Assembly: GCA_031082155.1 (NCBI GenBank)
Contig: JAVHLL010000003.1
Coordinates: forward strand, 16,621 to 80,620
Direction of reading: 5' to 3'
Source of the DNA: Thermodesulfovibrionales bacterium
Lineage (GTDB): Bacteria > Nitrospirota > Thermodesulfovibrionia > Thermodesulfovibrionales > SM23-35
DNA length: 64,000 nt
Below are positions 25,115-53,823 of the stretch, one piece after another (position 1 is the stretch's first letter; every line of letters starts with the position of its first letter). The position numbers and the translations under genes were made by a program. Under the pieces are notes generated by a model. The model saw only the letters and a list, made by a program, of their open reading frames with translations. It was not told the DNA's origin and did not search any database.

Positions 25115-25199
25115 GCGAGAGTGGCGGAACTGGCAGACGCGCTGGACTTAGGATCCAGTGGGTAACTCCGTAGGGGTTCAACTCCCCTCTCTCGCACCA
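25115..25199 (+). tRNA. tRNA-Leu (anticodon TAG)
   Basis: GCGAGAG acceptor pairs with CTCTCGC, loop CTTAGGA, long variable arm, T-arm GGGGTTCAACTCCCC, encoded CCA. Confidence 0.95.
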
Positions 25200-51144: not shown

Positions 51145-51309
51145 ATGAAAAAGGAACAGCAAACAAAGAAACGAAAAGAAAAGGACAAAAAATTATCTGA
51201 AACCTCTTCAACAGGGGTTCTCAATATCTGTTCGAATGCCTCCTGCCGTCTGAGAAAAGCAGGATGCATGGGTTTCGAGGGATGTCCGGGATATAAGGCA
51301 CGGGCATGA
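51145..51309 (+). CDS. 54-aa Cys-rich small protein (CX4CX6CX5C)
   Basis: MKKEQQTKKRKEKDKKLSETSSTGVLNICSNASCRLRKAGCMGFEGCPGYKARA; stop overlaps start of the next gene (ATGA); below track length cutoff. Confidence 0.6.
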   Translation: MKKEQQTKKRKEKDKKLSETSSTGVLNICSNASCRLRKAGCMGFEGCPGYKARA

Positions 51310-52430
51310 AGAAGCACCTTGTCCTTGTTGGCGGTGGTCATGCCCACCTCGCCGCTCTAATGAAACTGAGGGATTACACCGACAAGGGACACAGGGTAAC
51401 CCTGATTAGCCCTTCAGCCTATCATTATTATTCCGGTATGGGTCCGGGGATGTTGTCCGGGTTCTATGAGCCCGCAGAGATACGGTTCCATATCAGCAAG
51501 ATGGCAGAAGCCCGCGGAGCTTCTTTTATGGCAGACCCGGTCATCAGGATAGACCCCGCGAAGAGGATGCTCATGCTGCAGTCAGGCGCGCGGGTCCGGT
51601 ACGATGTCGTATCTTTCAATATCGGGAGCGGTATCCGGATAGATGACATCGTGCTTTCCGGGCGAAATGTTTTTCCCGTGAAACCTATCGAGAACCTTCT
51701 GAGAGCAAGAGAGTATATTCTGGAAGTGTTCAAAAAAAGAACTGCACACATACTCATCGCCGGTGGCGGACCAGCAGGGCTTGAAATATCGGCGAATGTC
51801 TGGAGACTCATGCATGAGAACGGACTCACCGGGGAGCTTACCGTACTCTGCGGGGGGAGGATGCTGGAACATTTCCCAAACGCGGCACGAACCATAGCAT
51901 TGAAGTCACTCAGGGAACGGGGCATCACAGTCCTCGAAAACGTTTCCCTCCGGTCACTGGAAAACGGCAAAGCAACATTCACTGACGGCAAAACGACTGA
52001 CTGCGACGTTGCGTTTCTCGCTACCGGCACAAAACCGCCGTTCATTTTTCATGAATCCGGTCTCGAAACCGGTCAGGATAAGGGACTGCTGGTGAATGCC
52101 TGTCTCCAGAGTGTCTCATACCCTGAGATATTTGGCGGAGGTGACTGCATCAGTCTCCGGAACCACCCCCTTCCGAAGGTGGGAGTGCATGCGGTAAAGG
52201 AAAGCAGCATCCTGTATCACAACCTTTACGCAATGCTTGAAGGAGGAGAACTGATGAAATACAGACCCCAAAAGAACTACCTGCTGATCTTCAATCTTGG
52301 AAATGGGAGAGGGTTGCTCTGGAGGCAGTCTTTTGTGACAAACGGCAGAGCAGCTTTCTGGCTGAAGAATTATATCGACAGGAAGTTTATGCGGAAATTT
52401 CAGGTTTCGGGTGAACTTGAAGAGAAGTGA
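51306..52430 (+). CDS. FAD-dependent NADH dehydrogenase-like oxidoreductase of the type found fused to SelD
   Basis: VLVGGGHAHLAALMKL...HYYSGMGPGMLSGFYEPAEIRFHI; second dinucleotide fold HILIAGGGPAGLEIS; FGGGDCISL. Confidence 0.8.
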   Translation: MKKHLVLVGGGHAHLAALMKLRDYTDKGHRVTLISPSAYHYYSGMGPGMLSGFYEPAEIRFHISKMAEARGASFMADPVIRIDPAKRMLMLQSGARVRYDVVSFNIGSGIRIDDIVLSGRNVFPVKPIENLLRAREYILEVFKKRTAHILIAGGGPAGLEISANVWRLMHENGLTGELTVLCGGRMLEHFPNAARTIALKSLRERGITVLENVSLRSLENGKATFTDGKTTDCDVAFLATGTKPPFIFHESGLETGQDKGLLVNACLQSVSYPEIFGGGDCISLRNHPLPKVGVHAVKESSILYHNLYAMLEGGELMKYRPQKNYLLIFNLGNGRGLLWRQSFVTNGRAAFWLKNYIDRKFMRKFQVSGELEEK

Positions 52431-52442
52431 GAGGGAATACCT

Positions 52443-53282
52443 GTGGGTATATTGAACTATTTTAAGCCTGTTTCCGTAATGACCGCGGAGGAGGTAAGGG
52501 AATTCCTGAAAAAGAGAAATCCGGGAGAGTACAATCTCGTTGACGTGCGGCAACCCGCTGAATATGAAAAGGAACATATCCCCGGCTCACAGCTCATTCC
52601 CCTCGGAGAACTTCGCGAACGCATCAATGAGATTGATCCATCCAAACCCACGATCGCCTATTGAGCGGCAGGTGTCCGCAGCCGTGCTGCTGCATCGACG
52701 CTGAAAGAAGAGGGGTTTGACAAGGTCTACAGCATGGAAGGGGGCATCCGTGCCTGGGGCGGCCTTCTCGCCGAAGGGGCTCCTGAAGCCGGCATGGCCT
52801 ACTTCCCTGATACCGCCGGACCAAAGGAGATGATCGGCCTCGCATGGATACTTGAAGAAGGCTCACGGAGATTCTATTCAGAACTTGCCGGCATACTGAA
52901 GGATGAAGAGGGAATTGCAATATTCCACGATCTGACCGCTGCTGAAGAACAGCATAAGACATCTCTCATGGATTTATTGCAGGACATCTCAGGAGAAGAA
53001 ACCGCAGAGGATATCCCCGGTTCTCTTGCAGGACCGGATGAAATCGGAGATGTCATGGAGGGCGGGATGCGCGTTAGCCAGGCGCTGCGCTGGACCGAGG
53101 GAAAACCGCTGGAGAGGATACTCGAGTTTGCGATCTCCCTTGAGTCGAATGCGTATGATCTCTACATTAAAATGGGGCGCAGGGTAAGGGATGAAAAATC
53201 AAAAAAAGTGTTTGCCATGCTTGGAGAAGAGGAGAAACGGCATCTCGGAAAACTGGCTTCCCTACTTGAACGGAAGCTATAG
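52443..53282 (+). CDS. rhodanese - rubrerythrin-like (ferritin-like diiron) fusion with in-frame UGA at catalytic Cys; candidate selenoprotein
   Basis: Frame 52443-52661 (…SKPTIAY), TGA 52662-52664, then AAGVRSRAAASTLKEEGFDKVYSMEGGIRAWGG… in the same frame through 53282; C-terminal E…EExxH helical repeats. Confidence 0.8.
52669..52703 (+). promoter_or_regulatory. SECIS-like stem-loop immediately 3' of the in-frame UGA
   Basis: CAG-GT-GTC-C-GCAGC-(CGUGCU)-GCUGC-AUC-GAC-G-CUG; apical loop begins 18 nt after UGA with G at second position. Confidence 0.55.
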
Positions 53283-53784: not shown

Positions 53785-53823
53785 GCGAGAGTGACGGAAC
53801 TGGAAGACGCGCTGGACTTAGGA
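53785..53823 (+). pseudogene. 5'-half tRNA-Leu(TAG) fragment
   Basis: 39 nt matching tRNA-Leu at 25115 with two mismatches, ending just after the anticodon; 3' acceptor strand absent. Confidence 0.75.

Follow-up and report, generated by a model that had tools for sequence, protein, structure and literature searches.

A predicted selenocysteine-containing rhodanese fused to a ferritin-like diiron domain in Nitrospirota and Desulfobacterota

Introduction

In a 64,000-nucleotide stretch of contig JAVHLL010000003.1 from a Thermodesulfovibrionales bacterium (GCA_031082155.1; the whole stretch is hereafter called the window), a plus-strand reading frame at 52443-53282 raises the question of whether its in-frame TGA codon ends a short peptide or is read as selenocysteine (Sec) in a longer protein. 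As read from the sequence, the frame starts with GTG, contains a single in-frame TGA at 52662-52664, and closes with TAG at 53280-53282. The original prediction held that this frame is open except for one TGA at the active-site Cys of a rhodanese, and that automated calling had split the gene in two. Re-reading confirmed the former, and ORF calling with table 11 indeed gave two ORFs, 52443-52664 (73 aa) and 52734-53282 (182 aa). The joined product has 279 aa and about 31 kDa, and its Sec is residue 74 (DPSKPTIAY-U-AAGVRSRAAAS). Rhodaneses with Sec are already a known kind of protein: predictions of them go back to 2005, and PMC13188914 (2026) tabulates five forms.

Results

Homologues carry either TGA or a Cys codon

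We searched the order for homologues and found a match in 41 of 179 genomes, 15 of which, including the source genome, contain a TGA inside a full-length homologue; the full-length homologues share 37-61% identity. In the column of residue 74, the 30 homologues retrieved from the order carry TGA (15) or TGC/TGT (15) and no other codon. A GTDB scan afforded 80 loci, with titles mainly from Nitrospirota and Desulfobacterota/Deltaproteobacteria, of which 30 have TGA and 50 have Cys. After removal of duplicates, 40 TGA and 58 Cys (TGC/TGT) loci were distinct, and no third codon type was found. The proposed alignment check, on both the order set and the GTDB loci, thus returned Cys or UGA only, and the TGA at 52662-52664 (plus strand), predicted to be read as Sec where the rhodanese loop has its catalytic Cys, shows the pattern of bacterial selenoproteins, an in-frame UGA aligned with the Cys of homologues. 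In a tree of 95 rows the Sec/Cys label switches at least 13 times, with four switches forced by the well-supported branches alone, and in genome G002 a copy with TGA coexists with one that has no stop at all.

A candidate bSECIS hairpin follows the TGA codon

Immediately 3' of the UGA, a candidate bSECIS hairpin lies at 52678-52693 on the plus strand (stem GCAGC/GCTGC, loop CGTGCT), with 52678-52682 pairing with 52689-52693 and a loop G at 52684. It thus occupies nucleotides 14-29 past the UGA (stem 14-18/25-29), and the typical sequence past the UGA in TGA forms is n12-CGCAGC-CGnGCn-GCTGCG. The second position of the apical loop is G in 39 of the 40 TGA loci, so that the arrangement expected of a bSECIS, a hairpin just 3' of the UGA with a G at the start of its apical loop, is present. 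The pairing exceeds what the encoded protein sequence would impose: the TGA loci form on average 5.42 of six stem pairs, as compared with 2.93 +/- 0.17 by synonymous shuffling (maximum 3.55 in 2000 shuffles, which are uncorrected for relatedness, though the loci come from two phyla), and the Cys-form loci form 3.67 against an expected 2.98. Furthermore, codons +5 (CGC) and +6 (AGC) are invariant in all 15 Sec forms of the order, whereas the Cys forms encode the same Arg by AGG, CGA, CGG, AGA and CGC. When identical codons were scored in 278 seven-codon windows, their excess over expectation peaked at +5 to +11 in the Sec forms (observed 0.67, expected 0.24; Cys forms in the same window, 0.35 against 0.24). 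The hairpin region is therefore the strongest synonymous constraint of the gene in its TGA forms, and the Cys forms do not share this conservation.

Individual loci vary on this theme. In L077, pair 15-28 is preserved through a compensatory C-G to T-A change, and L135 and L143 have, by eye, an apparently shifted stem (GAGCC/GGCTC). One locus with a TGT codon (L023) retains the full hairpin, which, judged from its sequence, looks like a SECIS relic left by a Sec-to-Cys change. An Rfam scan around the gene returned tRNAs only.

These observations bear on the simplest alternative, in which a sequencing error or a nonsense mutation has made a pseudogene, the TGA ending a 73 aa peptide and the remainder being a relic. 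The two ORFs from table 11 would fit such a reading, as would the fact that the genomes are mostly metagenome-assembled genomes (MAGs). However, the TGA occurs in 40 distinct loci with the downstream frame and the catalytic residues intact, the codon is never TAA or TAG, and the hairpin is conserved, which leaves this alternative hardly any probability. Since the same single in-frame TGA recurs at the same residue across genomes and loci, its position is not a matter of chance, and since the codon is conserved across independent assemblies, this conservation stands in for a check of the raw reads. Read error, pseudogene and plain termination were thus ruled out by the conservation of the TGA together with that of the hairpin.

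The source genome encodes the Sec machinery

We then investigated whether the organism could decode UGA as Sec. The source genome, an assembly of 2.65 Mb in 56 contigs called 100% complete, was searched for selA, selB, tRNA-Sec and selD, as the original prediction had proposed, and every one was present. The tRNA-Sec with anticodon UCA (73 bits; called tRNA-SeC by ARAGORN) has G73, an 8-bp acceptor and a 5-bp T stem, as read from the sequence; selA (608 bits) and selB (363 bits) share a contig. There are two selD genes, each with a TGA at the usual active-site position of SelD (GUxxKI). UGA recoding is therefore already needed in this organism by two members of a well-known selenoprotein family. 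With the complete set of selA, selB, selC and selD, the homologue column and the conserved bSECIS-type hairpin, the prediction that the UGA specifies Sec in a rhodanese is well supported.

Among the other genomes with a Sec form, selA and selB were found in 12 of 14. The two exceptions, the draft genomes G103 and G170, gave no match to selA or selB and have a tRNA-Sec; we read the missing genes as assembly gaps, the alternative being a real loss. A single gap could remove both genes, because selA and selB often appear to lie close together in this order. The co-occurrence of selA does not discriminate between the two forms, since nearly all Cys-form genomes have selA too, and it is equally common there.

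The source genome also has a second selB paralogue (359 bits; C35:116653-118639, L010 and L002), which adjoins a tRNA-Sec-like gene, called tRNA-Cys by ARAGORN, that has a long variable arm and the anticodon GCA; a Sec-containing selD lies about 2.3 kb away. The pair is similar to the selC*/selB* pairs that Mukai 2017 reported (described in PMC7609411). This raises the alternative that a selC*-type tRNA-Cys decodes the UGA as Cys instead of Sec, the more so as selC* tRNA-Cys genes, some with a UCA anticodon, are reported in Nitrospirae (PMC7609411). However, the GCA anticodon of the tRNA concerned does not read UGA, while the UCA tRNA shows the standard tRNA-Sec features, G73 and 8/5 arms, and selA is present, so that decoding as Cys is scarcely credible. 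Cys insertion at the UGA by selC* was accordingly ruled out on the anticodon of that tRNA.

Taken together, 52443-53282 (plus strand), with its open frame with one TGA, full-length homologues and AlphaFold model, is almost certainly one selenoprotein gene of rhodanese/ferritin-like architecture, as far as sequence can tell.

A rhodanese domain and a ferritin-like domain in one chain

AlphaFold gave a confident two-domain model for the joined protein (pLDDT 91.3, pTM 0.88). The rhodanese domain spans residues 19-105 (52497-52757, plus strand), as indicated by PF00581 (77.3 bits, cut-off 22) and a Foldseek match to solved rhodanese domains. Profile, fold and a six-residue catalytic loop that starts with Sec/Cys (U-A-A-G-V-R) all identify it as a rhodanese, and D34, R36, E40, Y41, U/C74, G77, R79 and S80 are invariant among 70 homologues. 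Residue 74 is the sole Cys/Sec of the window protein, which therefore has no internal disulfide or selenenylsulfide, no internal resolving thiol and no rubredoxin site.

The ferritin-like four-helix domain spans residues 127-278 (52821-53276, plus strand), as indicated by PF02915, the helices of the model, the ligands and PDB profile matches. The PF02915 (Rubrerythrin) match covers residues 226-276 with 52.1 bits (cut-off 23), and the profile matches by sequence in the PDB are 2fzf, 1vjx (TM1526) and symerythrin. The diiron ligands are conserved among the 70 homologues (E138 in 70, E168 in 66, H171 in 70, E234 in 66, E264 in 69 and H267 in 66), and sequence and model together place them in the four-helix bundle as in rubrerythrins, as a predicted metal site. 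In contrast, none of the 70 homologues has a CxxC, and the rubredoxin-like FeCys4 site is absent. The proposed "rubrerythrin-like diiron" module thus has the diiron ligands, and the protein is rubrerythrin-like or ferritin-like, not a rubrerythrin proper. It shares with rubrerythrin (PF02915) the four-helix ferritin-like domain, two ExxH motifs and carboxylate ligands, but has an N-terminal rhodanese in the place of the rubredoxin FeCys4 domain. Separately, in a Cys clade (L032, L035 and L037) several metal ligands are gone (positions E168, E234 and H267), and the sequences suggest that the iron site was lost and the rhodanese kept.

Relation to known proteins

Like the protein described here, Sec-rhodanese forms 1-5 (PMC13188914) combine PF00581 with Sec, and forms 2 and 4 have the motif UxxG, which here is UAAG. 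None of the five is described as a ferritin-like fusion, form 5 being a DsbD-like fusion with two Sec. Form 2 (MBM9537886.1) agrees in motif and may overlap with the present family. In the open literature, we found no selenoprotein with a fusion of rhodanese and rubrerythrin or ferritin-like domains, form 2 being known by its motif only, and neither PMC13188914 nor the other reviews searched mention rubrerythrin. Since the comparison with form 2 extends to the motif only, we make no claim of a first report for the fusion. No NCBIfam model covers it, every match being far under its cut-off.

No PDB chain spanning both domains was found by profile or Foldseek searches, and the best matches cover one half each. 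The nearest solved architectures are the rhodanese-FAD persulfide reductases (3nta, 8a56 and 3icr) and the rhodanese-iron persulfide dioxygenase (5ve3). The latter, BpPRF, likewise joins a rhodanese to a non-haem iron module, but differs from the fusion here as a mononuclear iron enzyme of the metallo-beta-lactamase fold with a Cys rhodanese and another domain order. In the CoADR-rhodanese/NADH-dependent persulfide reductases (3icr, 3nta and 8a56), a rhodanese is paired with an FAD pyridine-nucleotide oxidoreductase, as here, but the FAD module is of another subfamily and in the same chain, there is no diiron domain, and the rhodanese has Cys rather than Sec.

Gene neighbourhood

An FAD/NAD(P) oxidoreductase gene at 51306-52430 (plus strand; Pfam Pyr_redox_2, 93.7 bits) ends 12 nt upstream of the fusion gene and is its probable operon partner. 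The gene resembles Nterm_to_SelD (TIGR03169), with 275.6 bits across the full model, which is below the cut-off of 310 and does not make it a member; CoA-disulfide reductase models scored just 23-41 bits. In 17 loci from two phyla, with Sec and Cys forms alike, a homologue of this gene immediately precedes the fusion gene. A sterol-desaturase/fatty-acid-hydroxylase-like membrane protein is directly upstream in 13 loci (L067, L127 and L135 among them), mostly in Desulfobacterota, and an ABC-F-like ATPase in 10 loci, some being the same genome fetched twice; both names come from reading the sequences by eye. The upstream gene thus differs by clade and there is no universal partner. An 805 aa ORF upstream in L076 was considered as a SelD fusion and ruled out; read by eye, it contains nothing of SelD and is the FAD gene called from too early a start.

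On the other side, the fusion gene is followed by tRNA-Gln and tRNA-Glu. At 53785-53823, a 39-nt copy matches the 5' half of a tRNA-Leu(TAG) gene (25115-25199) with 95% identity; the 3' half is absent and ARAGORN made no call, and by its sequence the copy may be a truncated tRNA relic or an integration scar.

Discussion

On comparative evidence, SelB with Sec-tRNA(Sec), guided by the hairpin after the UGA, inserts Sec at residue 74. As to function, we infer that the protein may carry sulfane sulfur on its Sec, next to a diiron site, and that its role together with the neighbouring FAD oxidoreductase is probably in redox chemistry or the response to oxidative stress; the persulfide/selenide carrier of the original prediction is likewise a hypothesis. 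As a tentative mechanism, to which we give somewhat less than an even chance, Sec74 would take up sulfane sulfur as a selenosulfide (Se-S-). Drawing electrons from thiols or from the neighbouring FAD oxidoreductase, the diiron site would use that reactive sulfur or the selenolate, and the outcome may be redox detoxification in sulfur-rich anaerobes, either by reducing peroxide or O2 or by turning over persulfide. Two findings count against this proposal: the variation of the upstream gene by clade, and the loss of several diiron ligands in one Cys clade.

The FAD gene directly upstream, together with the pairing of FAD oxidoreductase and rhodanese in the solved fusions 3nta, 3icr, 8a56 and 6pfz, would also suit a persulfide/polysulfide reductase relay, in which the FAD protein reduces a Sec-bound persulfide to sulfide, as in CoADR-rhodanese (Npsr), and the ferritin-like domain is structural or an iron store. 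This reading is possible but doubtful, since the FAD gene is TIGR03169-like rather than CoADR-like and the almost invariant diiron ligands make iron chemistry likely.

Fusions with SelD are frequent among TIGR03169 proteins, and the affinity of the upstream FAD protein to this family points in yet another direction: Sec74 may carry selenium as a perselenide or diselenide to SelD, with the Nterm_to_SelD-like FAD oxidoreductase taking part. NADH-dehydrogenase-like fusions of SelD (PMC4561486) speak for such a selenium delivery, as does the in vitro binding of selenium by rhodanese as a perselenide (Ogasawara 2001, cited in PMC11957799). However, the TIGR03169 match stays under its cut-off, the FAD partner is missing at most loci, neither selD adjoins the fusion gene, the diiron domain would have no evident part in delivery, and the Cys forms are no rarer than the Sec forms, all of which makes this reading unlikely.

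Returning to a Sec-rhodanese and a diiron site acting in one chain, we see about an even chance that they represent an unreported selenoprotein family of Nitrospirota and Desulfobacterota, in which Se-assisted sulfane-sulfur chemistry would be coupled to the redox chemistry of non-haem iron, and Sec and Cys would have replaced each other repeatedly in nature. Because gene finders cut such genes in two and drop the catalytic residue, and because the NCBIfam matches stay under their cut-offs, many genomes of anaerobes probably carry wrong annotations for this family. The alternating Sec and Cys versions, along with the genome that holds both, provide a natural test set for what selenium adds to persulfide chemistry. 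If true, the pairing of a Sec-rhodanese with a diiron centre would bring the redox chemistry of iron together with selenium and sulfane sulfur in a single chain.
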